A DNA stretch of 51,863 bases, from contig JAGORQ010000001.1 of the NCBI GenBank assembly GCA_018062705.1, positions 85,624 through 137,486 of the forward strand, written 5' to 3'. Positions within the stretch are counted from its first letter, which is position 1. Every line of letters starts with the position of its first letter. The DNA comes from Candidatus Shapirobacteria bacterium. GTDB lineage: Bacteria; Patescibacteriota; Microgenomatia; UBA12405. The notes under the pieces were generated by a model. It ran no database searches. It was not told the DNA's origin and saw nothing but the letters and a program-made list of their open reading frames with translations. Made by a program: the position numbers and the translations under genes. Shown here in pieces: positions 6,195 to 49,386 of the stretch.

Positions 6195-6207
6195 TCAAAC
6201 TAGGATT

Positions 6208-6585
6208 ATGACTGTACCTGCCAAAATTCTTATTATAGAAGATGACCAACTATTAACCAATGCTCTGGGTATTCATTTCTTGCAATCAAATTTTGAGGTA
6301 AAAACTGCCGCTAACATGAAAGAAACTTTATCAACCTTAAAAAGTTGGTTACCTGATTTAATTATTTTGGACATTATTTTACCAATCTACAGCGGTTTCG
6401 ATATATTAAAATCAATCAAAAGCAACCCCGATTTCAAATCTATTCCCGTCATTATTGCGTCGAATTTGAGTGATGAAAAAAGTATCCAAACAGGCAAAGA
6501 ACTTGGAGCCATTGACTATATTGTCAAAAATGATTTATCTTTACAAGATTTGACCTCACTTATTCAAAAAGTTTTAAATGTCTAA
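6208..6585 (+). CDS. Stand-alone response regulator receiver protein
   Basis: This 125-residue protein is a single CheY-like receiver with no output domain. The acidic pocket is Glu11-Asp12-Asp13, the phosphoacceptor is Asp55 in LIILDIILP, the switch Ser lies in VIIASNL, and the conserved Lys in DYIVKND. I chose the ATG at 6208 because the longer open frame upstream only repeats kinase sequence in another frame, and the receiver fold begins at KILIIEDD. It starts 13 bases after the kinase stop and overlaps the next receiver by 8 bases, so the three form one operon. With no DNA-binding domain, it would act by protein contact or phosphorelay. Confidence 0.88.
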   Translation: MTVPAKILIIEDDQLLTNALGIHFLQSNFEVKTAANMKETLSTLKSWLPDLIILDIILPIYSGFDILKSIKSNPDFKSIPVIIASNLSDEKSIQTGKELGAIDYIVKNDLSLQDLTSLIQKVLNV

Positions 6586-6952
6586 ATCAAAAATTCTGAT
6601 TGTCGAAGACGATCGATTATTACTTGAGGGTATGGTCTATACATTCGAACAATCAAATTTTGTCGTAAAAACAGCTACCACCACCAATAACGCATTTTTT
6701 ATCTTAAAAAAATTTATTCCCGAAATAATAATTCTTGACATACTTTTACCTCAAAAAGATGGTTTCCAATTTTTATCAGAATTAAAAAATAATTTAAAAT
6801 ATAAAAATATCCCTGTTCTTGTAGCCTCAAACCTTGATCAACCCAAAGACAAACAAACCGCCATGAAATTGGGCGCGATAGATTATATCGTCAAAAATAA
6901 TATCTCACTTCAAGATTTAACCAAAATAGTCATCAATTTATTATCGGTTTAA
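6578..6952 (+). CDS. Second stand-alone response regulator receiver protein
   Basis: This 124-residue CheY-like receiver is clearly a paralogue of its upstream neighbour: both end in GAIDYIVKN followed by SLQDLT. It has Glu10-Asp11-Asp12, phosphoacceptor Asp54 in IIILDILLP, Ser in VLVASNL and the conserved Lys. The start overlaps the preceding gene by 8 bases, which points to coupled translation. Its stop shares a TTAA with the stop of the convergent gene at 6949. Two near-identical receivers after one kinase suggest a branched relay or a phosphate sink; that is inference. Confidence 0.88.
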   Translation: MSKSKILIVEDDRLLLEGMVYTFEQSNFVVKTATTTNNAFFILKKFIPEIIILDILLPQKDGFQFLSELKNNLKYKNIPVLVASNLDQPKDKQTAMKLGAIDYIVKNNISLQDLTKIVINLLSV

Positions 6953-8823
6953 TTGGTTATTGTATCGACAGTTCTAACTGCCGTTACCGACATTCCTCCG
7001 CTTGTAATTTGACTATTTATTGTAAATGGAACGATACCCTGTTTTCTCACCCTTACAACCACATACCGGTTTGCGTTATAAGTAATACTAGCCGAAACAA
7101 TTGTACTATCCGCCACTTGATCAATATATGACACATAGGCAGTATCATACGAATCATAGTCCTCGTCCAAATTAGAATCCAAATTAAATACACTTACTGA
7201 AAATGAGTTGTATAAATATTCTTTTTCTCTCAATATATTTCCGACTATGTCCCGTTTTACAACTCTCAAAATTCCCGCAGACGGCGTGTCTGGTTCAATT
7301 GTTGTCGTTACTATAAATGTTCCTGACCCTGATGTGTTTGAACTTGCGTGCGAAACATAAATATTTTTATCAATTATTCCATTGTCACCCGTTGTTCTAA
7401 AAACACTTACCCTATCACCCTCACTTACTCCAGACACCGTAATAGGAATCGAAATTGCCGGAATCTGAGTCGTATTCGTTGAATCTGTTAATTGAAAATT
7501 ATTGGCATCACTGCCAATCATATTTGTTAAAAAAATTCCCCTGGCACCAAAAAATTTACCTCCTGCATAAGTTCCAAATGGAGCTTGTTTTGAAGTAGAA
7601 ATATCTTCAGGGATACCATTAATTATTGCCGTGGTTGACCCGCTAGTTATCGTATCGGTATCCAAAAATGTTCCATGAATATTTCGAATCAAAATTGTGC
7701 CAGTGGTTCCATAATCAATCAGTGAAACAATATAACCCTGACCACCCGAGCTACTGGTAATCAAATTTGTTTCCCCAAATGGTCCACTATCTTCACTCGT
7801 ATAATTCAGCCGAATACTTCCAACACCAACATAATATTCTCCATTTACTTCATTTATTGTATCCAATGATCCTGTTTTACAAACATACTTCAAATATTCA
7901 TAAGTTTGTTTTAAAGTTCTGCCTGCACAGTTTATTTCACAATCATAGGGTTGAAATCCATTTCCATTACCCAAGTCTCTAGAAATGTAACCAAAAGAAA
8001 TTGTAATATCGTTATATCCCGCCACAGTTGCCTCCACAGTTTGATTGTTTGTATCAGTAAATGCGGCGATTGGTACTGGGTTTCTTCCACTTGATGCATC
8101 GATCACATAATGGTCGTAAAGAGTCCCATATTTTCGTGCCAAAATTGTTAATTTTCCCGAATCTATCAGTATTCCCGCCTCTTTTACTTTTATCAAAACA
8201 TCAATATGTCCATCACTCCACCATGGTGTAATTTGACTATCATTTTGATACACATCCAAAGTTGTTCCAGTAACTATTGAGCCTAGTGTAAAAATGCATG
8301 AGTACTGCATTTCTCCCGTAACAGCCCCACTATTTGCCAACAACGTTCCCGCACCAGCTCCTGTCGTTATTGTAAGCGCATCCGAATTTGCAAATGTTCC
8401 TGTCACTTTTCGTACCCACCATTTCCGTAATGTATTGTCATAATCCAGTAAAATTCCTGTGTGGGTTGATCCACCATCATGAATTGTTAGCCCAACATCT
8501 CCGCTATTGGCTTCAACATAACCAGTCGAGTCAAAGTTTAAGATATAGATGACGCCATCCCAGCCAGTTCCACCACTTGGCGTATTAATTGCCCCTGTCT
8601 TTAGGTATTTAAAAGAGTTTTCATCAATAAACCATCCATTAATTAGTGTATAAATTGTTGGTGTCTGTGCGGCAATTGGTATATCAAATTTTATTGTTGA
8701 TTCTTCATCAAAATAATCCAATAAATAGGTATAAAAAGCGTTAACAGTATATATTGTTGTCCCTGCAGTGTGACTAATCGTTTTGTTTGTAGTATTAATT
8801 GTAAAATCGTTTGTAATAGCCAT
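6949..8823 (-). CDS. Phage-tail-like beta-rich protein, 624 residues
   Basis: It begins MAITNDFTINTTNKTISHTAGTT with no signal peptide and no membrane segment. Along its whole length it matches the second half of the protein at the left edge and the 660-residue protein at 11908-13890. Shared landmarks are NGWFIDENSFKYL, DYDNTLRKWWVRK, GHIDVLIKVKEAG, SSGRNPVPIAAF, APFGTYAGGKFFGARGIF and SVFRTTGDNG. The family is likely a structural subunit of a phage-like particle or fibre, judged from composition and the lack of an export signal. It is translated from an AGGA site three bases after the 933-residue protein, so the pair is an operon. The order of the two genes is the order of the two halves of the left-edge fusion. 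I recognise no named domain. Confidence 0.65.
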   Translation of the reverse strand: MAITNDFTINTTNKTISHTAGTTIYTVNAFYTYLLDYFDEESTIKFDIPIAAQTPTIYTLINGWFIDENSFKYLKTGAINTPSGGTGWDGVIYILNFDSTGYVEANSGDVGLTIHDGGSTHTGILLDYDNTLRKWWVRKVTGTFANSDALTITTGAGAGTLLANSGAVTGEMQYSCIFTLGSIVTGTTLDVYQNDSQITPWWSDGHIDVLIKVKEAGILIDSGKLTILARKYGTLYDHYVIDASSGRNPVPIAAFTDTNNQTVEATVAGYNDITISFGYISRDLGNGNGFQPYDCEINCAGRTLKQTYEYLKYVCKTGSLDTINEVNGEYYVGVGSIRLNYTSEDSGPFGETNLITSSSGGQGYIVSLIDYGTTGTILIRNIHGTFLDTDTITSGSTTAIINGIPEDISTSKQAPFGTYAGGKFFGARGIFLTNMIGSDANNFQLTDSTNTTQIPAISIPITVSGVSEGDRVSVFRTTGDNGIIDKNIYVSHASSNTSGSGTFIVTTTIEPDTPSAGILRVVKRDIVGNILREKEYLYNSFSVSVFNLDSNLDEDYDSYDTAYVSYIDQVADSTIVSASITYNANRYVVVRVRKQGIVPFTINSQITSGGMSVTAVRTVDTITN

Positions 8824-8826
8824 AAA

Positions 8827-11628
8827 TTATCCTATTAATGCATCTAATGTTTGACTAACATAAACCGTAGTCGCTTGATTTGAAATAGTTGCATTGGTTT
8901 CAAATGGTTCATATTTATTAGATGCGCTTGATTTTCTCACTCGAATTCTTAACACATCACCATCATTTGCCGAGGCAGATATTATTTGGTCAACATTTTG
9001 TGCTGTCGCTTTTGTTCCTGTTGATAAAGTTGTCAAAGTCGTTAAATTATATACTTCATATACCGATCCGGTCACAATATTTTGTAATGTAATTGTTGCC
9101 GTATCCAAAGGGAATAAGTTATCTATTTGGGCTGCATAAGTGCTATTTGTATTACATTGAATATATGAAACCAAGTTTGTATTGGCAGCAATTTTACATG
9201 TCACTTTAAATTTAAGCATGTAACCAACATTAGGGGACACCGTTTCATAATTTAGATTATTAGAAAAAAACACAGGAAGATTTGTCGCTAAAGTGACAAG
9301 TATATTGTCACTTAATGTAATTGTCGTTCCGACAATATTTGTGACAGTGCACCCTTCTGCAAATTGAGTTCCGAGTTGTGCTGTCACAAAATCACCGATT
9401 TGTGGTTCTCGTGATCCTGTTACTGTAGCAATTGTAAAAGTATTTGTTCCTGCTGTGCCACCACCTGCTCTTAATCGACAAGTTGTCAGCTGTTTCCAAT
9501 CGCTCCATGTTGTGCCTGTATGAATTTGATAATCATAGTCATGATTTTGTGGATTAGTTCCGATAACCCATGGAGTCGCACCTACAAATCCAGTTATTTG
9601 TAACCTTGCTTCCTGCATCGAACACGAAAAATAATCATCTACCGTTGCCAAGGAAAGTCCTCCAGCCGAAGTAAAGCCGCTCCCTGTAGTAAAATTTTTA
9701 TCGGTATATTGCAATGTTTCTGCACTTGGTTCATTTAATGCCAACCACATCGCACCCCAAGTGTCACTCATAAAAGCCCCGCCAAAATGTGTTCCATAAA
9801 CCGAAGTTTGTCCTGTAGTAGTCATTTTTCCACTTCCACCCCTTTCGATGGCATTTAATCCAGCCATTGTTACGGTATCAAGCCAATCACCATAACAGTC
9901 TTCAAAAAGCATATTTTTTGAAGAATTTTGCGAGCTGTGTGCTGCTGTTCGGGTTGGTTGCAAATAACACCTTTGAACTTTTACATTAATATTGTTTCCA
10001 CCATCTGCAAATATATAAGCCGGAAAATTTGCCGACCCTCCATTTAAAAATGATGAACGAGATCCAAAATTTCTAAACCTAACATTGGATGATGCCAAAC
10101 AGCTTATTATCCCATTATATGGATGAACATTACTAATTATTCCTCCAATACCAAAAGTAATTCCATCAATTTTTATGGTGTCACATGAAGCGGTTACAAT
10201 CCAAGAATATAGTCCGGTTGTTGTATTTGTTGCTCCCGCATATCTATCACAATAATCAAAATTATTGACTTCACAATTAAATGAAGTTAATAATTCGTTT
10301 GTACAATTCAGAGTTTGACAATTATTAAATTGGATATCAGTTGATTGCGAAGTATAAAATCCAAAAGATTTTGTGGCCGATCTTGCATATGTCCAACATC
10401 CAGACTTACAATTTACCACTCTTTGTCCAATACAATAAGCAAACGAACACATCCCCCCAGTTAGACCATTTGAATATCCCGAAAACACCCAATTCTGAAT
10501 GGTTCCTCCTCCAAAACATGAAGTAAAATATCCACCTGCCAAAGCTAGTCCAGCCGATGATCCTGCTCCTCCATCATCAATTTCAAGTGGTGAAGCACAT
10601 TCCGAAACATTGATACCGTCCATGGTTGCACAATGTTTAATTTTTACATAAAAAGCTTGAGCAAATAACAAATACCAATCGCCATAGGTATATTCAATAT
10701 CGATGTATCCTGCGGAAGTTGTTGTAAAGTCTGGTCGTGTCGCTACTGTTGCATGTGGAATCGCATTAGTTGCTCGAGCGGCACTAGTACATTGTCTTAA
10801 AAAAATATTTGGAATTCGTGTTTTACATCCGCTTGGTGGAACATACCCTACATCAGTTGTACCATTATTACCAATTCTCATTTGACCGTTAGTTTCCATG
10901 CAAACAACTTTAGATCTTTCGTCAGTACCAAAATTAGTTGTACTCATTCCGACAGCATAAATTGCCGAATAAAATTCATAATTATCGGAACCTACGGCGG
11001 TTTCAATCCATACACCGGGGGAATATGTTGTCGTACTCCCGTTAGTTGGAACAGTCAAAAGTTGATTTGCACTTCCAGTCGTATCGTCCAAATAAAACCA
11101 ATCACCCCTCGTCGTAAAATTGCCCAATCGTGGCACATTAAAATTTCCCGACTGTTGGACTACAACTTCCAACCACCCTGTTACATCGGCACCAGTTGCT
11201 GTAGCTGCTCCAGCACCACTAAAAGTTAAGGCTCCCGATCCAAAGTTACCCCCTGCCACTTCTCTAAATTTAATAAATCCTGTTGTTCCAATTGTAGCCG
11301 ATGGAGCGTCTGTTAAACTTGCCCAAAATCCCAAATAATATCCGCTTACTCCACCCTGGCTGACTATATCTCCAATTGCTGGAGTTCCACTTCCTCCAGT
11401 TATTGCCAACCACCTTACCTTTGTGCCATCAATCACAAAACCTCCACCCAAAGTTGCCGAAATTACCGTATTTCCGGCATAACAACCCGTCATAGATGCC
11501 GGGGCTCCGTTAAACCATCGAGTATCAGTTCGTTGAGTGTATATTGCTCCGTTGATAGCTAATGTTTCGCCTGCCGTTCGTGCAGTTGTCCCATCATCGT
11601 TATATTGATTTACTGTTATTGTTGCCAC
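8827..11628 (-). CDS. Phage-tail-like beta-rich protein, 933 residues, possible beta-helix centre
   Basis: The GTG at 11628 starts MATITVNQYNDDGTTARTAG; a TAAAAT hexamer ends 6 bases before it, so the mRNA may be leaderless. There is no signal peptide. The first 300 residues are Gly/Thr-rich. The centre (about 300-650) has irregular short repeats with many Asn, Cys, Ser and Phe (for example SCFGGGTIQNW, NNFDYCDRY), like stacked beta-helix rungs in phage fibres. The last 110 residues (LQNIVTGSVYEVYN, VRKSSASNKYEPFET) match the end of the first module of the left-edge protein. A structural, fibre-like role is inferred. It forms an operon with the 624-residue gene and is divergent from the small zinc-ribbon gene at 11664. 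Confidence 0.65.
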   Translation of the reverse strand: MATITVNQYNDDGTTARTAGETLAINGAIYTQRTDTRWFNGAPASMTGCYAGNTVISATLGGGFVIDGTKVRWLAITGGSGTPAIGDIVSQGGVSGYYLGFWASLTDAPSATIGTTGFIKFREVAGGNFGSGALTFSGAGAATATGADVTGWLEVVVQQSGNFNVPRLGNFTTRGDWFYLDDTTGSANQLLTVPTNGSTTTYSPGVWIETAVGSDNYEFYSAIYAVGMSTTNFGTDERSKVVCMETNGQMRIGNNGTTDVGYVPPSGCKTRIPNIFLRQCTSAARATNAIPHATVATRPDFTTTSAGYIDIEYTYGDWYLLFAQAFYVKIKHCATMDGINVSECASPLEIDDGGAGSSAGLALAGGYFTSCFGGGTIQNWVFSGYSNGLTGGMCSFAYCIGQRVVNCKSGCWTYARSATKSFGFYTSQSTDIQFNNCQTLNCTNELLTSFNCEVNNFDYCDRYAGATNTTTGLYSWIVTASCDTIKIDGITFGIGGIISNVHPYNGIISCLASSNVRFRNFGSRSSFLNGGSANFPAYIFADGGNNINVKVQRCYLQPTRTAAHSSQNSSKNMLFEDCYGDWLDTVTMAGLNAIERGGSGKMTTTGQTSVYGTHFGGAFMSDTWGAMWLALNEPSAETLQYTDKNFTTGSGFTSAGGLSLATVDDYFSCSMQEARLQITGFVGATPWVIGTNPQNHDYDYQIHTGTTWSDWKQLTTCRLRAGGGTAGTNTFTIATVTGSREPQIGDFVTAQLGTQFAEGCTVTNIVGTTITLSDNILVTLATNLPVFFSNNLNYETVSPNVGYMLKFKVTCKIAANTNLVSYIQCNTNSTYAAQIDNLFPLDTATITLQNIVTGSVYEVYNLTTLTTLSTGTKATAQNVDQIISASANDGDVLRIRVRKSSASNKYEPFETNATISNQATTVYVSQTLDALIG

Positions 11629-11634
11629 AATTCA

Positions 11635-11640
11635 ATTTTA
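11635..11640 (-). promoter_or_regulatory. -10 hexamer of leaderless promoter for the 933-residue gene
   Basis: TAAAAT on the minus strand ends 6 bases before the GTG at 11628. No canonical -35 is seen. It faces the divergent TACAAT of the 11664 gene, 11 bases away. Confidence 0.4.
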
Positions 11641-11651
11641 ACAAAATACGC

Positions 11652-11657
11652 TACAAT
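11652..11657 (+). promoter_or_regulatory. -10 hexamer of leaderless promoter for the 11664 gene
   Basis: TACAAT is followed by 6 bases and then the ATG at 11664. That spacing would put the transcription start at or next to the start codon and leaves no room for a ribosome binding site. Confidence 0.45.
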
Positions 11658-11663
11658 AGGTTT

Positions 11664-11855
11664 ATGAAGGTAATCAAAACCAAAAAAATTCTCGCCCCCC
11701 ATTATGTTTGCACTGGAGGCTGTGGTCAAGTTTCCGATGTTTACACAAAATGTACCACCCGCGGCTGCATTAGAAATCGCAATCCACTTACTTTATGTAA
11801 CTGTAAAAACGGTAAACACGGCAAATTACCCACTTTAAATGTTCCTCGTGATTAA
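11664..11855 (+). CDS. Small Cys-rich zinc-ribbon-like protein
   Basis: The 63-residue product MKVIKTKKILAPHYVCTGG... has cysteines at 16, 20, 30, 35, 45 and 47 plus His13 and His52. This pattern fits a small zinc-binding protein of unknown partner. The frame is open further upstream, but the ATG at 11664 is preferred: the -10 hexamer lies 6 bases before it, and the upstream residues overlap the divergent gene and look non-coding. It lies between the two fibre-like operons, in the zone where the base skew of the top strand appears to change. Confidence 0.6.
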   Translation: MKVIKTKKILAPHYVCTGGCGQVSDVYTKCTTRGCIRNRNPLTLCNCKNGKHGKLPTLNVPRD

Positions 11856-11862
11856 TGTCTTA

Positions 11863-11892
11863 TTGACAGTTATATCAAAAAATCCTTATACT
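11863..11892 (+). promoter_or_regulatory. Sigma70-type promoter for the 11908 operon
   Basis: TTGACA (11863-11868), an 18-base spacer and TATACT (11887-11892) form the best canonical promoter in the left half of the window. Transcription would start near 11899, giving a leader of only about 9 bases that begins inside the AAGG ribosome site (11897-11900). A TGTC-N5-GACA inverted repeat overlaps the -35 and could be an operator. Confidence 0.6.
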
Positions 11893-11907
11893 CTTTAAGG
11901 AAAAAAT

Positions 11908-13890
11908 ATGGCAATACAAGATGATTTCACAATAGATTACGTCAATAAACGACTTTATCATTCTTCTGGTACTACTGTCTATTCTTCGAACGCGCTTTAT
12001 ACCTACATCATGGACACTTTTGATGAGTTAGCCCAGATGGATGATACTGTGCCAATGTCAGCCCAGACACCGACGGACTACACACTGATAAATGGCTGGT
12101 TTGTGGATGATGAATCGTTTAAATACCTAAAAGGGGGTGCGGTCAAAACTGACGGACAGTTAAACGAAGTTAGAATTCTTACATTAGTTAGCGGTGGCTA
12201 TACCAGTGCAATTTCGGGAGATATCGGTAAAACGGTGACAGGCGGAACCACAGGAGATACGGGTAAATTGCTCAGCTATGATAATACCCTGAGAAAATGG
12301 TGGGTAAGAATGGACGATGCGGGAGACTTGTTTGATAATGCGAGTGAGGCCATCACGATTGCTTCGGGAACTGGTGAGGGTGATATGTCGGCGATCTCGG
12401 TGTCGGGAGAAAATTTGTGGGCAAACATTTACACTCTAGGTACAATTGAACAACATTCAAACGAGGAACAAATATATGTGATCCAGAATGGAACTTCGTT
12501 GGTTGAATGGTGGCCAGACTCGGCTACACCAGCCGTCAGACACATCGATGTGTTATTGAAGGTCAAAGAGGCCGGCACGGAAATTGATAGTGGCAAGGTA
12601 ACAGTTTTTTTGAGAAATTACCCTTCGGCGGGAAACGCTGATTTGTATGACAACTTCGAAATTGATCTGACTTCGGGAGGTAGAAACGCTGTGCCTTTGG
12701 CGACTAGCCCTGATTTGAACAACACAACAGCCCACGCGACTATTTCAACTTATACCGATATTTCGGTGGTATTTGTAAACGCCACAATTACTCATGGGTC
12801 GATTAGTTCTGGACCTTATACTGAGTTTGAAACTGTTACTGGAAGTTTATCGGGGGCGACTGGTAAATTTATAAAAGAGTCGGCGGGGACAATGACTTTG
12901 GGCAATGTGGATGGCACTTTTGAAAATAATGATGTGTTAACTGGTGGGACATCGGGAGCTACCAGTACCGCCTCAGCCGGAATGACGGTGGCTCGAACGA
13001 CAACCAAAAACTTTGAACAAGGTAGTAGTTATAACTATTCAGTAATTGTTGATTGCGCCACCAGAGCTTTGTCACAAGTCTATGAATATCTAAAATATTT
13101 GACGAGGGAAAATTCTTCGGCCTACTATACTTACGGCACAAAATATTTATCGTCGACTTTGAGTATAAATAAGCTAGCGGGTGAGCAATACATTACGCCA
13201 TTTATTGACTTTGATACGCCGACTAATACCTATTCACCAACGAAAGCGGCCCCGTTTGGGACTTTTGCCGGAGGTAAGTTTTTCGGTGCTAGAGGGGTGT
13301 GGATTCAGGACATGGCTGAGGCAGATATTCAGAATTTTCAATTGATTGATTCTGATAATAGTACTCGAACACCACCAAACAAACAAAGTATTACGATTGG
13401 AAACTTACTGTCAGGTGATAGAGTGTCAGTATTTAGAACTACTGCTGGGACAACAATTAACAAAGCGATGTATACGGCGGCGGCTGGAAATTCGTCCGGT
13501 AATGCTACTTTTGTGGTAAATGAGGCAATAACTGCCGACACGCCATCAACTGGGGTGATTAGAATAGTTGATACTTCAGACACAAGCTCGGCTCGAGAAA
13601 CACGGTACACTTATACCAGCTGGTCAGTATCGACTTTTTCAGGAGTATCACCAGTTTTGGATAGGACGTATACAGCAACCGACGATACGGCCTATGTACC
13701 TTTTATTGACGAAACTGCCAGTAGCTCGAGCGCCTCGGTAACAGTTATCTACACAACCGACAGATCGGTATTACTCCGGGTGCGTCGTTATACAGCGACT
13801 GCCATTCTGCCTTTTGAAACGACAGGGACTTTTACCTCAACTGGTTACTCAACTTCGGCAATTAGGACAACCGACACTATCGTGTCGTAA
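11908..13890 (+). CDS. Phage-tail-like beta-rich protein, 660 residues
   Basis: This is the third copy of the family shared with 6949-8823 and the second half of the left-edge protein. It starts MAIQDDFTIDYVNKRLYHSSGTT and keeps NGWFVDDESFKYL, SYDNTLRKWWVRM, RHIDVLLKVKEAG, APFGTFAGGKFFGARGVW and SVFRTT. It differs by an insert of about 60 residues (about 290-350) rich in Gly, Thr and Ser (VTGSLSGATGKF, VLTGGTSGATS), a repeat style common in phage structural proteins. It has no signal peptide or membrane segment. The start is supported by AAGG seven bases upstream and the TTGACA/TATACT promoter. Eight bases separate it from the beta-helix protein that follows. It is probably a structural subunit. 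Confidence 0.68.
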   Translation: MAIQDDFTIDYVNKRLYHSSGTTVYSSNALYTYIMDTFDELAQMDDTVPMSAQTPTDYTLINGWFVDDESFKYLKGGAVKTDGQLNEVRILTLVSGGYTSAISGDIGKTVTGGTTGDTGKLLSYDNTLRKWWVRMDDAGDLFDNASEAITIASGTGEGDMSAISVSGENLWANIYTLGTIEQHSNEEQIYVIQNGTSLVEWWPDSATPAVRHIDVLLKVKEAGTEIDSGKVTVFLRNYPSAGNADLYDNFEIDLTSGGRNAVPLATSPDLNNTTAHATISTYTDISVVFVNATITHGSISSGPYTEFETVTGSLSGATGKFIKESAGTMTLGNVDGTFENNDVLTGGTSGATSTASAGMTVARTTTKNFEQGSSYNYSVIVDCATRALSQVYEYLKYLTRENSSAYYTYGTKYLSSTLSINKLAGEQYITPFIDFDTPTNTYSPTKAAPFGTFAGGKFFGARGVWIQDMAEADIQNFQLIDSDNSTRTPPNKQSITIGNLLSGDRVSVFRTTAGTTINKAMYTAAAGNSSGNATFVVNEAITADTPSTGVIRIVDTSDTSSARETRYTYTSWSVSTFSGVSPVLDRTYTATDDTAYVPFIDETASSSSASVTVIYTTDRSVLLRVRRYTATAILPFETTGTFTSTGYSTSAIRTTDTIVS

Positions 13891-13898
13891 AATAGGTC

Positions 13899-15200
13899 AT
13901 GGCGCTAAGCTTTGATTTTTATAACAGTGTAATTACGGTATTGTCGCCGGACACGAGCGTAACTATCCAGCAACTAATAAACGGCATTCGCGACACTGAA
14001 GATGAGTTGGTGCCGGCGATGTCCTACGGACATATTGCTGACGCCTATGGAAAACAAGATTTGGGTGGCGGAGTGCAAGTGGGTATAACCCTAGTACTTC
14101 AATCTCCCTGGAGAGTGGCCTTTGAAGCCAGAAGTGGACCAGAGACAGTATCCTGCAGAATTGATGGAGGAAATTTGGTGGGAGGACTGGATAATAATCC
14201 AATTGCACCCACGGCTTTTACTCAGGTAACCATGGCAAATTCGTCATCGGCAACCCTGGCTACGCCAAATGATACGGCAAATTTGAAATATTTAATCGAA
14301 TCGATGGCAAATTCTCATATGGGTGTGGGGAGTACTTATTATTGGGACCCAACCAACGGTAATGATTCCAATAACGGTGTTCAGCCAAGCACGGCAGTAA
14401 AAACTTTTGCCCGACTGGACCAATTATTGGTGGATAATCACTATGATACGGTCTATTGTATTTCGGCTGATCCGTCGGGTTTGACGACAGTGACTGAAAC
14501 ACTGGCAATAACTAAGAGTACCGTCAAACTGCGAGGCCCAGGTTATAGCTTTCAACTTAAACCAACCGGGACTAGTGCCGACACAATTAGTATTAGTGGC
14601 CACTCAGTGCAAATTAGTGGACTGTATATTGAAACAGCTGTTACAGGAAACAGAAAAGGTGTCAGTATAAGTGGCAACAATAATCAAATTAGAGATTGCT
14701 GGATAAAAAATTGCCGAAGTGATGGAATTAATATTGCCACTTCGACAATGAGTAAGGTTAATAATTGTGTAATTGAAAACTGCGGGGGAAGTGGAACAGG
14801 TAATGGAGTTAGTATTGGTAGTTCAACGATTCAATTATCAATGGTAAAAAATGTAATTTTGGGAAATGTGAACGGTGTAGCCATGGCCGGGACCGGAGTA
14901 CTAGATAATTTATTGGAAAATAACCTGATATACAATAATAGTGGTTTAGGATTGCAAATTGGCGCTGGAGTGGTGAGAACCACAGTCAGGTCGGGTAATA
15001 CAATTATCAACAATAGTGGGGGAAATACTCAAGACCTGGGAACCGATAGTTATATTGAAACACCAGCCGGCGGTGCTTCGGCCTCGGAAATTGCCGATGC
15101 TGTCTGGGATGAACTATTGGCGTCGCACACCGTGTCTAATTCGGCTGGTAAAACACTCAAGGATGCTAAGAGCAAGGCAACACTGGCATCGTTGAAATAG
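13899..15200 (+). CDS. Phage-like protein with N-terminal attachment domain and right-handed beta-helix
   Basis: Of 433 residues, 1-125 form a compact domain (IRDTEDELVPAMSYGHIADAYGK, GITLVLQSPWRVAFEARSGP, TAFTQVTMANSSSAT). From memory this resembles N-terminal regions of phage tail or neck appendage proteins. Residues 146-390 begin STYYWDPTNGNDSNNG, an opening typical of DUF1565/pectate-lyase-like beta-helices, and continue in Asn/Gly/Ile-rich rungs. The last 39 residues contain IADAVWDELL and GKTLKDA, a helical motif I associate with phage fibre ends. There is no signal peptide. It lies 8 bases after the 660-residue gene and upstream of the Tat operon. A receptor-binding or surface-attachment role is inferred. 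Confidence 0.7.
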   Translation: MALSFDFYNSVITVLSPDTSVTIQQLINGIRDTEDELVPAMSYGHIADAYGKQDLGGGVQVGITLVLQSPWRVAFEARSGPETVSCRIDGGNLVGGLDNNPIAPTAFTQVTMANSSSATLATPNDTANLKYLIESMANSHMGVGSTYYWDPTNGNDSNNGVQPSTAVKTFARLDQLLVDNHYDTVYCISADPSGLTTVTETLAITKSTVKLRGPGYSFQLKPTGTSADTISISGHSVQISGLYIETAVTGNRKGVSISGNNNQIRDCWIKNCRSDGINIATSTMSKVNNCVIENCGGSGTGNGVSIGSSTIQLSMVKNVILGNVNGVAMAGTGVLDNLLENNLIYNNSGLGLQIGAGVVRTTVRSGNTIINNSGGNTQDLGTDSYIETPAGGASASEIADAVWDELLASHTVSNSAGKTLKDAKSKATLASLK

Positions 15201-26667: not shown

Positions 26668-26710
26668 TGTCAAACTGTGTCAAGATAGGCGGTAATTCAT
26701 AGGTTATTAT
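26668..26710 (+). promoter_or_regulatory. OmpR-type operator A and -10 of the 26717 gene
   Basis: TGTCAA at 26668-26673 and again at 26678-26683 (10 bases apart), then GATA. Exactly 21 bases after the second box comes TATTAT (26705-26710), and 6 bases later the ATG. No canonical -35 is present, as expected for an activator-dependent promoter. Confidence 0.65.
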
Positions 26711-26716: not shown

Positions 26717-27097
26717 ATGGACAAACAAAAAAAGAGTATTCCAGAAAAAGTTGTTGATGTTGGTTTACCAAAAGAATTAACAGCAATGTTGACTAAGTTG
26801 GCAAACGAAAATATTCCTAATTTAATGGATTATGCTGGCTTCATGATGGCTAGAGGGAGAGACATGGCATTACATGAAAGTATTGTCGAGCTTGTCGATT
26901 TTGGTATCGGTCAATTTGAACCTAGAAATATTAAAGGACAAGAGTTTTTACAAAAAGCCAGAGAGCAGTTACACCAAGAAGGTTTGAAATTAACCATTGA
27001 AACAATTGCTAAATTGAAACAGCCGAACACTTTTGATTTTGTAGGTCAGGTAAGGCAAATATTCGCAAGAAAGATTTCGACTGTGGAAAGTAAATAG
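26717..27097 (+). CDS. Unknown small protein, operator-controlled cargo 1
   Basis: I do not recognise this 126-residue protein. It is predicted soluble and mostly helical (PKELTAMLTKLANENIPNL, EFLQKAREQLHQEGLKLTIE), with no signal peptide, membrane segment or Cys cluster. The ATG is fixed by TATTAT 6 bases upstream. Its promoter carries the double TGTCAA operator, and a decayed copy of the regulator 3' end follows its stop at once. It is thus the first member of the cargo array; its function is unknown. Confidence 0.6.
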   Translation: MDKQKKSIPEKVVDVGLPKELTAMLTKLANENIPNLMDYAGFMMARGRDMALHESIVELVDFGIGQFEPRNIKGQEFLQKAREQLHQEGLKLTIETIAKLKQPNTFDFVGQVRQIFARKISTVESK

Positions 27098-27130
27098 TTA
27101 TTCAACATATAACCTTTACCTCGAAACAGC
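27098..27130 (-). repeat. Decayed relic of the regulator 3' end (copy 0)
   Basis: Read on the minus strand this encodes RGKGYMLN and then a stop, matching the end of the intact regulator (RGKGYMLKN). It is diverged from the two perfect 44-bp copies and begins directly after the TAG of the 26717 gene. Confidence 0.6.
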
Positions 27131-27171
27131 AAAAAAATTGATGCACAATTATTAATGTTTTATTTGGGACT

Positions 27172-27507
27172 ATGATAGTGGAACAAAAAATAATACCTCC
27201 AAAACAATGGTATGGAGAGGATATGAGTCAAAGAAAAGCTAGAGCAATAACGGTAAGTTTTGATTCTAACGCGGTGGGTATAACAGAGCTCGAACTTCGA
27301 CTTATTAGAGATGAGCATCTGACAATTCCTCAACTATGCATCGAAAGATTTGACATTGCTGAGGCGGTTGAATTATTAAACGGCACAAATTCTCCGACTC
27401 ATATTAAGGCAAAGGAAGATGCTGAACAGCTGAGAACAAACTTAATAAATGTTTTAGGTGAACAATATGTTTTTGGAATGCTGGAGCGAACCGAATCACA
27501 GCTTTAA
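27172..27507 (+). CDS. Unknown small protein, cargo 2
   Basis: I do not recognise this 111-residue protein. It is soluble with mixed strand and helix prediction (RARAITVSFDSNAVGITELE, then helical segments). The ATG at 27172 is used, with a weak TTATTT 6 bases upstream and TTGATG 16 bases before that; an internal ATG at codon 18 is the alternative. No TGTCAA box was found here, so it differs from its neighbours. Its TAA lies inside the first 44-bp repeat and shares TTAA with the relic stop on the other strand. Confidence 0.55.
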   Translation: MIVEQKIIPPKQWYGEDMSQRKARAITVSFDSNAVGITELELRLIRDEHLTIPQLCIERFDIAEAVELLNGTNSPTHIKAKEDAEQLRTNLINVLGEQYVFGMLERTESQL

Positions 27508-27547
27508 TTCTTCAACATATACCCTTTACCCCTAAGGGTTTGGATAT
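27504..27547 (-). repeat. 44-bp perfect copy of the regulator 3' end (relic, copy 1)
   Basis: It is identical to 27848-27891, which is the true 3' end of the regulator gene. Read on the minus strand it encodes IQTLRGKGYMLKN and stop, with nothing of the regulator upstream. It includes a small hairpin, ACCCTT / AAGGGT (27521-27526 with 27534-27539). The distance to the second copy is 344 bases and encloses one promoter and one cargo gene. Confidence 0.85.
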
Positions 27548-27556
27548 GGCAATAAA

Positions 27557-27600
27557 TGTCAAAGTGATGTCAAGATAAGTAAATATATTTGGCCTATAAT
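27557..27600 (+). promoter_or_regulatory. OmpR-type operator B and -10 of the 27627 gene
   Basis: TGTCAA at 27557-27562 and 27568-27573 (11 bases apart), then GATA, 21 bases, then TATAAT (27595-27600). The ATG is 26 bases further on, so this mRNA has a leader of about 20 bases, unlike the other sites. Confidence 0.65.
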
Positions 27601-27626
27601 TTGGTTAATTATTAATTAATATTATT

Positions 27627-27851
27627 ATGTGCGAAATGGATATATTAGAAACTGGAATTTGCGTAAGCCCATTGTCACCGGAAGATCTGGCAAGGATCGA
27701 TGGACTATTACTTCATACAAGGAATATTACTCGCGATTTTAATTTAAAATTTTATGGATTTGATATATATCCTGATTTTGAACGAAGAATATATGGGCGA
27801 TTGAACACCCCCCAATCAGGATCAGTTTCTAAAACACTAGAGAATAGTTAA
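27627..27851 (+). CDS. Unknown small protein, operator-controlled cargo 3
   Basis: This 74-residue soluble protein is not recognised. It has SPLSPEDLARIDGLLLHTRN, a predicted helix, and an aromatic stretch FYGFDIYPDFERRIYG. Its promoter carries the double TGTCAA operator. Its TAA overlaps the regulator stop on the other strand within TTAA, and the unit of relic, promoter and gene lies exactly between the two 44-bp repeats. Confidence 0.55.
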   Translation: MCEMDILETGICVSPLSPEDLARIDGLLLHTRNITRDFNLKFYGFDIYPDFERRIYGRLNTPQSGSVSKTLENS

Positions 27852-27891
27852 TTCTTCAACATATACCCTTTACCCCTAAGGGTTTGGATAT
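27848..27891 (-). repeat. 44-bp repeat, copy 2 (3' end of the intact regulator)
   Basis: It is identical to 27504-27547. It includes the stop codons of both convergent genes in one TTAA, and the ACCCTT/AAGGGT hairpin, which could end transcription from either side. Confidence 0.85.
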
Positions 27892-28873
27892 AGGAGCCGG
27901 AGATACCGTTGGCTTCGAACTTGTCGCGCAAACGCTGAATAGTTTTGGAAATGGCGTAGAGACTAAAATCATCTTCGGATTTGAAAATGGCGTTGCCAAG
28001 CGAATCAAAATCAACAATTTGATTGGAATTTTTGATGAGAGCGAGAGCTAGACTTTTTTCGGTATCAGTCAGATTCTCTATTGGCTTATCAAAGATTTTG
28101 GGCGTTGATTCAACATGACTAAAGGGCTTGTCAAAACTAGGAATACCTAATTTTTGATAAAATTTGTCAGATTCTTGGTTTAATTTAACTAAATCCTTGG
28201 TACGGATACCCTTGAGGGTGGGGATGTAGGCCGAGGCCGATTCGTATTTTTGGAGAACTGTAGCAATAGAGGTCTCGGTAACTAAATAGTCGGTAATAAT
28301 TTCCGATTCGGACCACATACCTTTTAGTTTTTTGAAGACATCGTCTCTGGTTAAAAAGGTAATTATGGCTTCGGCAATCGCATGAATCCCCTGGTCTTCA
28401 CGAAGGTACATAATAACTTCATCTGATGTTTCGATGCCATTAAAACTACAGCTAGTGCCAAAACTAGTGGGATAGATGATTATTTTTTTTATACTATTTG
28501 CTCGTGAAGGAATTATTTTATAGATTTCAGCAATTACTGCAGACTCAGCTTGCTCCCAAAGATCTTTTGTTTTAACAAAGTTTGGAGTTTTTAAGCTACA
28601 TTGTTCAAGTAGGCCAACAGTAGAATTGAGTGTTTTTGAATCAATGGTGATAGGTAAAGAGTTGACATCAACTTTTTTCACCTGATCCCAGAAGCGAGGG
28701 ATAGTGTTGTAGGGCAAGTCGGAAAAGGTGACAGTGTGGGCGTTGTTGATGTTGGGATTGGTAGGTAGAACGGTAAAACCGTTGGATTTGTAGAAGCCAA
28801 CAATCATTTGGTGAGCACAGTGAATTAAACGCTCGGCTTCTGATTTGACTGAATATTCCCAGGTGGTAAGCAT
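27848..28873 (-). CDS. One-component regulator with C-terminal OmpR/PhoB-type winged helix
   Basis: The 341-residue protein ends in an OmpR-type winged helix (about 267-341: NLTDTEKSLALAL, YAISKTIQRLRDKF, IQTLRGKGYMLKN). The recognition helix and the wing sequence of that family are visible. There is no receiver domain; residues 1-260 are a domain I do not recognise, shared with the gene at 48554. It should bind direct repeats near promoters. The promoter is TTGACA-N18-TATAAT with the ATG only 5 bases after the -10. That TTGACA is the reverse complement of box 1 of the divergent operator at 28903, so the protein may repress itself while activating the 28954 gene. Its last 44 bases are duplicated upstream of the cargo genes. 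Confidence 0.78.
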   Translation of the reverse strand: MLTTWEYSVKSEAERLIHCAHQMIVGFYKSNGFTVLPTNPNINNAHTVTFSDLPYNTIPRFWDQVKKVDVNSLPITIDSKTLNSTVGLLEQCSLKTPNFVKTKDLWEQAESAVIAEIYKIIPSRANSIKKIIIYPTSFGTSCSFNGIETSDEVIMYLREDQGIHAIAEAIITFLTRDDVFKKLKGMWSESEIITDYLVTETSIATVLQKYESASAYIPTLKGIRTKDLVKLNQESDKFYQKLGIPSFDKPFSHVESTPKIFDKPIENLTDTEKSLALALIKNSNQIVDFDSLGNAIFKSEDDFSLYAISKTIQRLRDKFEANGISGSYIQTLRGKGYMLKN

Positions 28874-28878: not shown

Positions 28879-28908
28879 ATTATAGCATGTATCTTATAAT
28901 ATTGTCAA
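28879..28908 (-). promoter_or_regulatory. Regulator promoter overlapping the divergent operator
   Basis: On the minus strand TTGACA (28908-28903), 18 bases, TATAAT (28884-28879), then 5 bases to the ATG. The -35 coincides with box 1 of the operator for the divergent gene. Confidence 0.7.
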
Positions 28909-28945
28909 AGTGGGTCAAGATCGGATTTGTCTATTGAATTAAAAT
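28903..28945 (+). promoter_or_regulatory. OmpR-type operator D and -10 of the 28954 gene
   Basis: TGTCAA at 28903-28908 and GGTCAA at 28913-28918, then GATC, 21 bases after box 2, then TAAAAT (28940-28945). The ATG at 28954 is 8 bases after the hexamer. Confidence 0.62.
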
Positions 28946-28953: not shown

Positions 28954-29292
28954 ATGATTAAGACATTTGATACAACATTGTCTGCCAGACAATTTATTGA
29001 AGCGAATTTAAAGACCGAAGAAAGTGAATTGGCGTTTTTGTTGCACTTTGTGGGTAAGACATTGGAAAGAACACACGTTGTTGGGGAAAATGAAATATTG
29101 GTGGGGTTTGGGATGTTGCAGGTAAGAAAAGACATTTCAACGATGATAAAGATACCGCTTTATGCTGGGGTGTACGGAGAAATGCTGGCTGACGCAGTAA
29201 TTAGTTATAGAAACGGTAGAAGACCTGAAGAGTTGGACAATGTCACTATTGACGGTTTCTTAGAACAGATTAAGCCAAGGGAAAAAAATTAA
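28954..29292 (+). CDS. Unknown small protein divergent from the regulator, cargo 4
   Basis: The ATG at 28954 gives 112 residues ([20 protein letters not shown]...). A TTG at 28927 in frame is rejected because it would overlap the operator and the -10. The protein is soluble and helical with a Gly/Tyr-rich centre ([20 protein letters not shown]), and it matches nothing I know. Being divergent from the regulator and sharing its operator, it is the likeliest functional partner of the regulator. Its stop shares TTAA with the copper ATPase stop. Confidence 0.62.
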
Positions 29293-32200
29293 TTCTTTTG
29301 GGTTTTTAGGTAATTTTCTTTAAACTCTCTTGGGACAAAGTGCATCATATCGAGACTAGTTAATGTTCTTTTGGGTAGACCAGTGATAATGACGTTGTTG
29401 CCAAAAAAATCTTTGAGAATGTCGGACTTTTGACTGATTAACTTTTCGCTTATCATCATTTTGGCCTCATCATATCCAATGACAGTAGACAGATAGTTAA
29501 TTCCGTCGATAGTGTAAATAGTTTTGAGAGGGTCAATTACGTTCTTCAACTGTTCGGGAATATTTGAAGCATCATAAAGATAAAACAGCTTTAGATCACC
29601 TGATGGAGTTGCGGTTACCAATAAGTCATCTAAGGCTACTGAAAGACCTCTGAAAGTAGACTGACTAAACAGATGAAAGTGGTCAATAGGGGTGCCTGTT
29701 TGAGTGAGAATACCAACCACCTTGACGGTAGGAAGACCAAAGAAATTGGGAATTTCTGAGCCAATACCCTTGATCAAACCGTTTTCGATCATCATACCAG
29801 CTTCGGCTGAACCAAGAACAACTGTATTGGGAGCAGATAGGTCGGCTGTACCTTGGGATAGTTTTATTTGGGCAGGCAGACTATCGATACCGATAAATAG
29901 TTTGGGTGAGGTTTCGAGAAAAACTTTTGTAGAATTGTTGGTTAAAAGTTGACTAATAGCTGTTTTGACTGAGGGGTTATTTACCAAGTATGATTTGATG
30001 GAAGCATCGCTACCCATGGCAGAAGAGAATCTAGCAAATTGAATAAAGACGAATAAAAAGATGGTTACCATGGCGTAAGGTGCCAATTTGGAAATCCAAT
30101 TGAACTTGCCGGGCTTAAAGAACTTGAGGGTTAGGGAATTAGTGACCACAGAGACAGAAGATAATGCCATGGCTAGGCCAGCGAGTTCTGGCTTGAGAAC
30201 TAGACCGATTCCGGCTAAAGCACGGGCGGCGATGGGGATACCTAAGACATTGTAGATGAGGGCAAAAAATAAATTTTGGCGAATTTTACCGACTGTCTCT
30301 CGAGACAAGCTGATAGCGGTTAAAACACCCTTTAAGTCGTTGGTCATAATAATAATATTGCCCGATTCCATGGCCACATCAGCGCCTGAGGCCATAGCAA
30401 TTCCTAGGTCTGCCTGAACTAAGGCTGGGGCATCGTTGATACCATCGCCAACAAAACAAACATAATTATGATTAGATTTAAGGTTTAAGAAGTAAGATTT
30501 AAGAATAGGGCGGGATTGGAGTTGCTTAACATGATTGGCTTTGTCGGCGGGGAGGACTTCGGAAAAAATATTTTCTGATTTGATGCCAACTTGCTTGGCA
30601 ATAGCTTCGGCGGTACGGCGGTTATCGCCAGTAATCATGTAAACGGCGATGCCCATACTGGAAAGCTTTTGGACGACTGAGGCAGACGAGTCTTTGACTT
30701 GGTCGGCCACAGCAATCAGGGCTAGGGTTTTTTTGCTTGATGACAAAAGCATGACAGTTTTGCCTTCGGACTGTAATTTTTCAATGTCTGTTTGATGAAT
30801 CGATTTTGTGGGTTTGGTTATTAAATATTTTTTGCCAGATATAGTGGCGGAGACACCGGTACCGGGAAGTGCAAGAAAATTACTAATTACTAATGACAAA
30901 TTACTAATTACAAATTTAGACTTAAAATAACTCACTATAGATTCGGCGAGGGGGTGTTCGGATTTGGATTCGATGGAATAAAAAATTGAGCCAATCTTTT
31001 GATCGGATAATTTTGAATAATTGATAAAGTCGGTGACTTCTGGTTTACCTTTGGTTAAGGTACCGGTTTTGTCAAAAACAATAGTATTAACTTTTTCAGC
31101 CATTTCCAATGGTTCTCCACCCTTAATTAAAACCCCATACTCAGCACCCTTACCTGTCCCAACCATAATAGAAGTAGGGGTGGCTAGTCCGAGAGCACAC
31201 GGACAGGCAATGACTAAGACTGAAACAAAAGCCAAAAGACTAAACTCTAAACTCGAATGAAAAACAAAGAACCAAATAGCAAAAGTTAAGAGGGCAATAA
31301 TGATAACAATGGGAACAAAAAATGATGAAATCCGATCAGCGACCGCCTGGATTGGGGCCTTTGACCCCTGAGCATCTTCCATTAGTTTGACGATTTGGCT
31401 AAGGGCGGTATCAGTTCCGATTTTGGTAGCTTTAAATTCAAAAGAGCCGGTCTTATTAATTGAAGCAGTGTAAACCTTGGAACCAATTTGTTTTTCGACA
31501 GGTAATGATTCGCCAGTCAAAATTGATTCGTCAACCGCTGAATAACCACTAATAACTTCACCGTCAACCGGAATACGCTCACCAGGACGAACAATAACTA
31601 TGTCATTAACTAACACCTGTTCTATGGGAATATCAATAGTTTGACCAAGGCGCATCACCCGGGCGGTTTTGGGTGCCAAACCAATTAGCTTTTCAACAGC
31701 CTCCGAAGTCTTACCCTTGGCTTTGGCCTCTAAGAATTTTCCTAAAGCAACAAAAGTAACTAAGAAAGTAGCCACTTCAAAATAGAGATTGGGGATCTTG
31801 GTGCCGTTGAGCCCAATAACCGATCCGGTCTCAACAGAGTACTTTATAAGTTCATAGAGACTGTAGAAAAAAGCGGTGCTAGTACCGATAGCAATCAATG
31901 AATCCATAGAGAAGGTTTTTAGCCTTAGGGCAGACCAAAATCCTTTGAAAAAATTTGACCCGATAAAGAAAAGTACAGGGATGGTCAGAATAAATGAGAT
32001 AATGCCGGAATAGGGTAAAACTGTACTTTCGAATGGGATAGCGTTGGTAAAGTCATAGACCATAAACAAAATCATTGGTATCCCCAACAGAAGTCCAAAT
32101 ATAAATTTGGAAAACCAGTATTTGATCTCTTTGACTTGATAATTTTTTTGGTTTTGAGAGTCGAGGCTGGTAAGTGTTGCCTGGTAGCCAGCCTTGACAA

Positions 32201-32384
32201 CACTTTGAATTAGATTATCAACATTTGCCACAGGGCTATGGATAATTCTGGCCTTAGATGTGGCATAATTTACATTGACTTTGGAGACTCCGGGTGTATC
32301 GAGGAGGGACATTTCAATAAGTCGGGCACAACTAGTGCAGTGCATTCCTTGGATACTGAGACTGGTAGATTTTTGAGTAGACAT
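29289..32384 (-). CDS. copA: Copper-exporting P1B-type ATPase with C-terminal extracytoplasmic extension
   Basis: The 1031-residue pump uses ATP to export Cu(I). An N-terminal metal-binding domain has MHCTSC (Cys16, Cys19). The actuator motif TGES is at 290-293, the membrane metal site CPC is at 394-396, the phosphorylation site DKTGT is at Asp438, and GDGINDAP starts at 646. The usual family length is 750-800. After the normal last helices an extra membrane segment (about 768-786) and about 240 more residues follow, placed outside by topology and not recognised. The ATP-binding half holds short in-frame repeats ([12 protein letters not shown]) near 30890. The start overlaps the previous gene by one base. 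Confidence 0.9.
30886..30922 (-). repeat. In-frame mini-repeat inside copA
   Basis: The unit AATTACTAATTAC or close variants occurs twice, giving [11 protein letters not shown] in the nucleotide-binding domain. Its low complexity is unlike the flanking sequence, so it looks like a small inserted repeat tolerated in a loop. Confidence 0.4.
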
Positions 32385-34931: not shown

Positions 34932-34975
34932 TGTCAAAGTCGTGTCAAGATAGTTCTAATATTATGGGGTAATAT
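34932..34975 (+). promoter_or_regulatory. OmpR-type operator C and -10 of the 34982 gene
   Basis: TGTCAA at 34932-34937 and 34943-34948 (11 bases apart), then GATA, 21 bases after box 2, then TAATAT (34970-34975), then 6 bases and the ATG. Relative to that ATG box 1 is at -50 to -45 and box 2 at -39 to -34. Confidence 0.68.
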
Positions 34976-34981: not shown

Positions 34982-36145
34982 ATGAACAGTAAATATGATA
35001 GCTACAAAATTGGTATGAATCTGCTGGGCTCACTTTATGGAACGTCTAATAAAAATGAACCAGAAACAACTTTAGCTGAAACAAATGCAACTTCAGTTAA
35101 AGAGTTGGAAGTTTATGGTGAAAAAGAGATGAACCTAAAACATGCGCGATATGGAAAAGTTTTGGGCTTGAGGGGTTCTACAGACTTTCAAGGTGCGCAA
35201 CCATTGGCTTTTTACGATAATGATCCGATGGATTGGCGAGGAGCATCGGGAGTTCCGACAACTCAATTGAACAGAAAATTTTCAAATGATTTCCATACTC
35301 TGTTAGATGATAAAGAGTTATTTGACGCACCAATTTCCTTTACACCAGTTATAACCGGGGCCTACCGGTTTCACATTGGTGCACACTATCCAATAACTGA
35401 AAATTTACTTTCCTATTTTCATAACAACTCACAAAATAGTCTAATGAGACGAACTACTTATAACTGCGAGGAGTTTAATATTGGTGGAAAAATTGGTGAT
35501 CCGTATCCACATACTGGATATGATGTGATGGAATGTGTTAAACATCCATTTTTTTGGACAAACAAACCAGACGAAGTAGCTAATGAATTAATAAGTCCTC
35601 GATTTCCAGTGTCACAACTAAATTCGGACAAGGAAGCCATCATTACCGAAAACGTAGTCGTAAATGAGACCTGGGGTTTTCCAAAAACTAATCAAGATGC
35701 AAAAGATTACTTTCCTTTAGTCGCTAAAATTATGGGTTTAATGCACAATAAACCCTATGATTGGGATAATGTGATTGCAATTACGAGTGGGTTTAACACA
35801 TCGGAATCAAAATATGAAAATGCAGTAAAGAAGTTGGATTTTATGAGGTTTTTACATGATTTACATGGCAAATGGATAATGTTTAGCACTTCACCTGATG
35901 TGGGAAAGGATATGTCAATACTAGGAATCACCTTTGCTGATCCGGAATATTTTCAAAACGGAGCAGGATGGAAAGGGCGAAGAAAGTTAATAAAAATTGA
36001 TATGAATGAGCTGATACTTAGTGAACAGGAAACTAAAATTGTCGAACTTTTAAGTCAACGATTTGGAGAGTTTGTTGGTAGACCAACAGAAACTTATCTG
36101 CAGTTGCAAAAGGAGATAGACACTTTACTTACCACAATAAATTGA
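34982..36145 (+). CDS. Unknown 387-residue protein under the OmpR-type operator
   Basis: The ATG at 34982 is chosen over the TTG at 34976 because the TAATAT hexamer ends exactly 6 bases before it, as at other operator sites. The protein is soluble with no signal peptide. It is rich in aromatic residues and His (YRFHIGAHYPITENLLSYFH, GYDVMECVKHPFFW) and ends in a helical segment (ETKIVELLSQRFGEFVGRP). I cannot assign a family. It is by far the largest gene under this operator and lies 6 kb from the regulator. It overlaps the PIG-L gene by 17 bases at the 3' end. Confidence 0.65.
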   Translation: MNSKYDSYKIGMNLLGSLYGTSNKNEPETTLAETNATSVKELEVYGEKEMNLKHARYGKVLGLRGSTDFQGAQPLAFYDNDPMDWRGASGVPTTQLNRKFSNDFHTLLDDKELFDAPISFTPVITGAYRFHIGAHYPITENLLSYFHNNSQNSLMRRTTYNCEEFNIGGKIGDPYPHTGYDVMECVKHPFFWTNKPDEVANELISPRFPVSQLNSDKEAIITENVVVNETWGFPKTNQDAKDYFPLVAKIMGLMHNKPYDWDNVIAITSGFNTSESKYENAVKKLDFMRFLHDLHGKWIMFSTSPDVGKDMSILGITFADPEYFQNGAGWKGRRKLIKIDMNELILSEQETKIVELLSQRFGEFVGRPTETYLQLQKEIDTLLTTIN

Positions 36146-48275: not shown

Positions 48276-48497
48276 TTATTCGGGCTTATTTTTTTGTTCG
48301 CGATACTCTCGCCAATAATAGCTGACTAACTTACGCAGGTCATCGTCAGATAAAAACAGACCTAATCGAGGGCGTAATTCCCAGACATTACCTCTACTTT
48401 CAATATGTTTACCAACAAAATTGGTGACCTCGGCATCATGAGCGGTTATCTCATCCAAATTAAGAGGAGATTCTGAAATATTTAAATTGCTTGGCAT
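48276..48497 (-). CDS. Unknown small protein under an OmpR-type half operator
   Basis: This 73-residue soluble protein starts MPSNLNISESPLNLDEITAH and ends SDDDLRKLVSYYWREYREQK, so it is likely helical. Its promoter has TGTCAAGATA, 21 bases, TAAAAT and then 7 bases to the ATG, the same plan as the cargo genes at 26.7-29 kb. It is divergent from a second, broken copy of the regulator, as the 28954 gene is from the intact one. Function is unknown. Confidence 0.58.
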   Translation of the reverse strand: MPSNLNISESPLNLDEITAHDAEVTNFVGKHIESRGNVWELRPRLGLFLSDDDLRKLVSYYWREYREQKNKPE

Positions 48498-48504
48498 GTC
48501 GGTG

Positions 48505-48537
48505 ATTTTATTAAACTAGTGCTACAATATCTTGACA
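48505..48537 (-). promoter_or_regulatory. OmpR-type half operator E and -10 of the 48497 gene
   Basis: On the minus strand TGTCAA (48537-48532) then GATA, 21 bases after the box, then TAAAAT (48510-48505), then 7 bases to the ATG. The upstream box is not recognisable. Confidence 0.55.
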
Positions 48538-48553
48538 TTTTTAAATTTGGTCT

Positions 48554-49141: not shown

Positions 49142-49194
49142 TCAAAAAAATAGAAATAAAACCAGTTGGAAAACTGACAAAACAAGAGAAAAAA

Positions 49195-49386
49195 GTGTTT
49201 GACGTTCTGAAAAAATATATTGGCCAACTAGTAAGCTTTGATAGAATTGCTACTGAATTGTGGCAAGAGAGTGAGGAAAAATATTCGGAATATGCAATTA
49301 CAAAACTGATTGAAAGATTGAAGAAAAAATTGCCGAAGTATTCTATTCACTCACAGAGAGGTGTGGGGTATATTTTGGTAAAATAA
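49195..49386 (+). CDS. Regulator paralogue, OmpR-type winged helix (C-terminal part)
   Basis: From a GTG at 49195 there are 63 residues, but the frame is open from 49126. The extra codons (GIRIIKKIEIKPVGKLTKQE) still align with the intact regulator (KIFDKPIENLTDTEK), so the GTG is unlikely to be the real start. The winged helix shows YAITKLIERLKKKL and ends HSQRGVGYILVK, as OmpR-family domains do. It is either the second half of a frameshifted gene, a product of slippage at the A run, or a free DNA-binding domain made by reinitiation after the 49139 stop. Confidence 0.6.
   Translation: MFDVLKKYIGQLVSFDRIATELWQESEEKYSEYAITKLIERLKKKLPKYSIHSQRGVGYILVK

Follow-up and report, generated by a model that had tools for sequence, protein, structure and literature searches.

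The locus surrounding a transcription regulator gene, here called R, in the 51,863-nucleotide stretch of DNA that we analysed (the window, to whose positions the coordinates below refer unless another locus is named) is best read as a turnover site for modules that each combine a regulator, an operator and cargo, a reading that we regard as likely. There is good reason to think that turnover of such modules left relics of regulator genes behind, and we lean slightly towards homologous or illegitimate recombination, not a dedicated recombinase, as the process responsible. An earlier note on this DNA had proposed repeated insertion or exchange of cargo genes at the regulator's end. The relic tails and the gain and exchange of cargo described below agree with that proposal, but the natural unit appears to be the regulator-operator-cargo module and not a lone small-gene cassette. 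The gene order in the window is ksgA - operator 1-c1 - relic 1 - c2 - relic 2 - operator 2-c3 - R - operator 3-divergent cargo, where c1, c2 and c3 are small cargo genes and the relics are copies of the 3' tail of a regulator gene.

The intact R gene (27848-28873, minus strand; Pfam match) encodes a 341 amino acid protein that consists of an N-terminal domain and an OmpR-type winged helix. The winged helix comprises residues 267-339 and matches Trans_reg_C (PF00486) with 47.4 bits, above the curated cut-off of 26.2. R is like the OmpR/PhoB winged-helix regulators (PF00486) in this C-terminal part and in the direct-repeat sites near the -10 element (the sites here are conserved and their binding is predicted; below), but it differs from them in having an N-terminal domain of ~250 amino acids and no receiver. 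The Pfam scan found no receiver domain in R, and the NCBIfam matches are confined to its C-terminal part; the domain that stands in the receiver's place was assigned to no known family. Structure prediction from a shallow alignment of the window protein and related loci gave a moderate model (pLDDT 64), whose best fold matches outside the winged helix, to zincin peptidases (thermolysin, M61 and SPRTN), are weak. A zincin-like N-terminal domain was considered on this basis and rejected, as the fold support is weak and comes from a moderate model. The HExxH motif is absent in 33 of 33 cases. Searches of viral contigs and phage records gave no match to R. A second, diverged R homologue that is split by a frameshift or stop (48554-49141 plus about 49147-49383) is present at window positions 48276-49383, together with a small divergent gene (48276-48497, minus strand) and, between the two, one operator half-site (GTCAAGAT, 48529-48536, minus strand).

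The last 44 bp of the R gene (27848-27891) recur without mismatch at 27504-27547 (relic 2, minus strand), exactly as had been claimed, and a scan of the window for the 44-bp repeat with three or fewer mismatches gave no further match (shuffled sequences give 0). A third, imperfect tail copy, relic 1, is best placed at 27095-27125 on the minus strand (31 nt, 84%). With three or fewer mismatches allowed, a 20-bp core of the repeat is found in the 1.07-Mb genome at these three sites and at one weak, 3-mismatch site on another contig. The earlier note had listed relic 1 as a decayed copy at 27098-27130; the copy is there, but its position is shifted and random decay does not describe it. Relic 1 still encodes R-G-K-G-Y-M-L, the codon changes (AGG>CGA and GGG>GGT) being synonymous, and so resembles a tail from a different regulator allele. 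Every tail copy is placed where a small plus-strand gene ends, at the stop codon: relic 1 lacks a stop codon of its own and is abutted by the TAG stop of c1 (27095-27097), and the stops of c2 and of c3 each have TTAA in common with a perfect copy, as previously noted. The perfect copies are spaced 344 bp apart, the length given before for a unit of relic, operator and cargo gene. That composition holds for relic 2 and c3, where 9-10 bp separate relic 2 from operator 2, but not for the interval between relic 1 and c2, which has no recognisable operator.

Convergent 4-nt stop overlaps (TTAA/CTAG) were tried as an insertion signature and found unconvincing (10/41 module ends vs 3/33 elsewhere). 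A TTAA overlap is also seen between the divergent cargo gene and a copper-type P-ATPase gene (29289-32384, minus strand; overlap in window 29286-29297), and the end of the P-ATPase gene has 9 nt (TTAATTCTT) in common with the regulator tail, which may be chance or may be recombination micro-homology.

Each repeat had also been said to hold a small hairpin (ACCCTT/AAGGGT) that could be a terminator or a recombination site. The palindrome is present in the two perfect copies only; it is absent from relic 1 and from the closest orthologue (in genome G017), the fold z-scores of -0.38 and -0.85 are no better than those of shuffled sequence, and no T run scored as a terminator. Both roles were rejected on these grounds, and the palindrome is a by-product of the TLRGKGY codons. 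By the same values and distribution there is no attC-like structured recombination site between the cassettes.

What connects the genes of the locus is a direct-repeat operator, TGTCAAA-N3/4-[T/G]GTCAAGAT, whose four genomic copies are confined to this locus and to its plus strand, each followed by N18, a -10-like element and a plus-strand gene. Motif search places operator 1 (TGTCAAACTGTGTCAAGAT, then TATTAT) at 26668-26686 ahead of c1, operator 2 (TGTCAAAGTGATGTCAAGAT, then TATAAT) at 27557-27576 ahead of c3, operator 3 (TGTCAAAGTGGGTCAAGAT, then TAAAAT) at 28903-28921 ahead of the divergent cargo gene, and operator 4 (TGTCAAAGTCGTGTCAAGAT, then TAATAT) at 34932-34951 ahead of an outlying cargo gene. 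The cargo genes, all on the plus strand, are c1 (26717-27097, 126 aa), c2 (27172-27507, 111 aa), c3 (27627-27851, 74 aa, convergent with R), the divergent cargo gene (28954-29292, 112 aa) and the outlying gene (34982-36145, 387 aa). None of them was assigned to a family by Pfam, NCBIfam or PADLOC, toxin, immunity and secretion families included, and c1, c2, c3 and the divergent cargo gene are not copies of each other. Operator 3 read in reverse supplies the TTGACA of the R promoter (28879-28908, minus strand), TTGACA-18-TATAAT, which matches the consensus at 12/12 positions and so has its -35 element within the operator; the cargo promoters have no clear -35 element. Because of the known behaviour of PhoB/OmpR proteins, R probably binds the TGTCA direct repeats in their manner and would repress its own consensus promoter, and by the same analogy it could be an activator of the cargo, with a repressor an equally fair guess.

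The operator and the variety of its cargo are not peculiar to this genome. When 374 genomes from the class Microgenomates were searched with a profile, and family searches were added, 34 regulator loci were obtained. Their flanks contain 29 operator occurrences, every one on the opposite strand to R, where shuffled flanks (both strands together) would be expected to give 2.8; the motif was written after many sites had been viewed, which makes the count of 29 a descriptive one, although nothing in the motif's design favoured one strand or a low number in the genome as a whole. Of these matches, 22 are directly divergent or convergent to R. The cargo is mostly unrelated from one R locus to another. 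STAND-type ATPases recur at three loci, radical SAM enzymes at two (with small Cys-containing ORFs adjoining), and one cargo gene is sigma-factor-like. Known defence families were considered for the cargo and gave nothing convincing (one weak Druantia-like match, the G183 cargo). These operator and cargo results have stronger counts behind them than the relics have. In two of the relatives discussed next, G020 and G030 (regions L031 3080-6162 and L029 4700-6878), an R-family gene is divergent both to a small Cys-containing ORF and to a gene for a radical SAM enzyme akin to peptide maturases; these are possible RiPP-like clusters.

Four named relatives (Candidatus Shapirobacteria and one Amesbacteria) came from a contig scan with alignment, a first scan having given none. 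Orthologues of R are present in G017 (62%), G020 (47%) and G030 (partial), and in all three the same operator precedes different small genes. Different small genes in relatives were what the earlier note had advised looking for, and they were found: the orthologous loci keep R and the operator, and the cargo differs. The same genes in the same order with no length variation, the outcome named as speaking against the proposal, was not obtained. G017 shares the window's neighbours (the zinc-ribbon gene, ksgA and the ABC transporter), and its convergent and divergent cargo genes have no significant similarity to the window cargo in the same positions (77/1000 and 200/1000 shuffles, respectively). 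Its divergent cargo gene is instead a distant homologue of c1 (Smith-Waterman score 65, 0/2000 shuffles; phmmer E 3e-4), so c1 probably once adjoined a regulator that has since been lost. A ksgA match was found in 14 genomes of the family, and R adjoins ksgA in G000 and G017 only. In G020 R is beside secF, and ksgA abuts an apparent homologue (by eye) of the gene beyond the G017 ABC transporter; in G030 two additional small genes separate R from that same secF gene, which is still nearby. At the corresponding chromosomal site, relatives either carry other cargo or lack R.

Relics are found in other genera as well. A same-strand copy of the R 3' tail is present at 4/34 loci and at 4/290 control genes, a modest enrichment. 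At three loci from three other genera (G183, G229 and G057b) the order is tail, cargo (leftward), R (rightward), so that the relic lies on the 5' side of R beyond the cargo, whereas in the window it lies on the 3' side. Tail identity at these loci is concentrated near the stop codon; in the G183 relic 87/90 positions are identical in the last 90 nt and 25/30 just past the stop, falling to 40-70% further upstream, the pattern expected if two diverged regulators had recombined at the 3' end. Of the four control matches, two (adk and ruvB) themselves sit at regulator loci. The adk tail copy in G057b directly follows the R tail relic (L091, G057:C3, where 4148-4314 contains an R-tail relic with a 3' palindrome and then the tail copy of an adenylate-kinase-like gene at 2374-3435). 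The ruvB tail is duplicated around a 400-aa ATPase gene with no regulator between (L032, G017:C3, G017b; normalised 9248-9362 and 10799-10914). Given these two matches, R may be no special case, and 3' ends in these genomes may become duplicated around insertions as a general rule. A winged-helix fragment at G057a, in the expected place beyond the cargo, is suggestive; it is only 32% identical and was left out of the relic count. Winged-helix pieces near G143, G332b and G000b were rejected as relics, being parts of other intact proteins.

These observations can be joined in the following scheme. A module would pair a regulator gene with divergent cargo, either one gene or a small operon, and the operator that both use would lie between the two. 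A new module would recombine with the locus at the resident regulator's 3' end or close beside it, giving a tandem array. Since all modules use one operator, the additional regulators would be redundant, and their bodies could be deleted with the 3' tails left in place; the orphaned cargo would keep its operator and remain under common control. The window array would then have lost all but one R body. Natural transformation is a plausible route of entry; it has been shown in Saccharibacteria, and com genes are conserved across CPR phyla (PMC10633639). Counting against the scheme are c2, which has no operator, and the opposite side of the relics in other genera; no genome examined shows the intermediate stage, in which two such regulators would stand intact in tandem.

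A simpler history would be a one-step illegitimate insertion, in which a donor fragment of operator, cargo and regulator 3' end recombined with the resident regulator at one end and was joined at the other end without homology; operator 2 and c3 would thereby have been inserted and the 44-bp tail duplicated, and a second regulator body would never have been in the array. A single event of this kind is enough for relic 2, with its short distance to operator 2, and accounts for it equally as well as an array does; the ruvB tail duplicated around an insertion in G017b is a parallel with no regulator involved. It leaves unexplained, however, the relics of G183, G229 and G057b, which have the tail on the far side of the divergent cargo and have lost a regulator 5' part, and the homology of c1 to the G017 divergent cargo suggests a lost partner regulator. 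We consider this history unlikely as an account of the locus. An improbable alternative is a site-specific cassette system in which the 3' end of R is the attachment site, the perfect repeats are attL and attR, and a recombinase acts in trans. A perfect direct repeat at a gene's 3' end and the peak of identity around the stop codon in other genera are what such a system might show, and the genome has two genes of the tyrosine recombinase family (PF00589). These genes are on other contigs (C28 and C8), no integrase gene is near the locus, and nothing positive supports a trans-acting recombinase; moreover, the repeats are not uniform in sequence or in length (44, 31 and about 80 nt), the palindrome is neither conserved nor better folded than shuffles, and relic 1 and the G183 relic resemble the tails of diverged regulator alleles.

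The assembly is a metagenome-style draft of 50 contigs, and assembly with short k-mers could misjoin at a repeat of 44 bp, so an assembly artefact, or a chimaera of two strains that have the repeat in common, was also weighed. We judge it very improbable: relic 1 is diverged, relic 2 is continuous with operator-c3 sequence that is unique, and relics also occur in other genera, in assemblies made independently. Finally, direct repeats that each lie between or at the end of convergent genes could come from local tandem duplication of one gene unit or be kept as bidirectional terminators, to which we give almost no weight since the four cargo genes are not copies of one another, the hairpin has neither a T run scored as a terminator nor a better fold than shuffles, and the cargo of relatives differs.

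Among known systems, the locus works like the arrays of orphan cdiA-CT/cdiI and rhs modules, in which fragments of the main gene head the displaced modules (PMC3150448), but it is not a member of that class. The likeness lies in the tandem displaced modules with a main-gene fragment at the head of each (here the two window tails and those of G183, G229 and G057b), in the strain-variable cargo exchanged beside a conserved gene, and in the varying lengths of homology that the fragments keep. The repeated gene here, however, encodes a transcription regulator instead of a secreted toxin or toxin-delivery protein, and the window cargo stays under a common operator and has no toxin, immunity or secretion families. 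Rap-Phr receptor-signal pairs (PMC5199041) resemble the modules in that a regulator and its small partner gene spread jointly by duplication and horizontal transfer; the protein families are unrelated, regulator remnants are left here, and nothing marks the cargo as signal peptides. As in integron cassette arrays, small and mostly unrelated genes are gained and lost at one place, but each gene here has its own operator-promoter, and the locus has no linked integrase and no conserved recombination-site structure; it is not an integron array. Integrative elements that use gene 3' ends, with a constant att core and a recombinase of their own, are a further comparison; at the R loci identity peaks around the stop codon, the lengths vary and no recombinase is linked. 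The literature that we searched contains no description of such a system, which may exist elsewhere.

More tentatively, an exchange system may operate across the Microgenomates class, with R and its operator as a plug-in platform and the R 3' end as the preferred recombination point; unrelated cargo swapped in would be controlled at once by the resident R, and the deleted regulators would be a fossil record of the exchanges. If so, a single regulator family and its operator lead to a large set of exchanged, function-unassigned genes of Patescibacteria, and reduced genomes could take in a gene and regulate it at once with no visible mobile-element machinery. From the tail relics, the order of past events at a locus could be worked out. 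Apart from this locus, window positions 5-15200 contain very long repetitive ORFs (e.g. 5-4588, 6949-8823, 8827-11628 and 11908-13890) that are partly alike and, judged by eye, resemble surface or phage-structural proteins.
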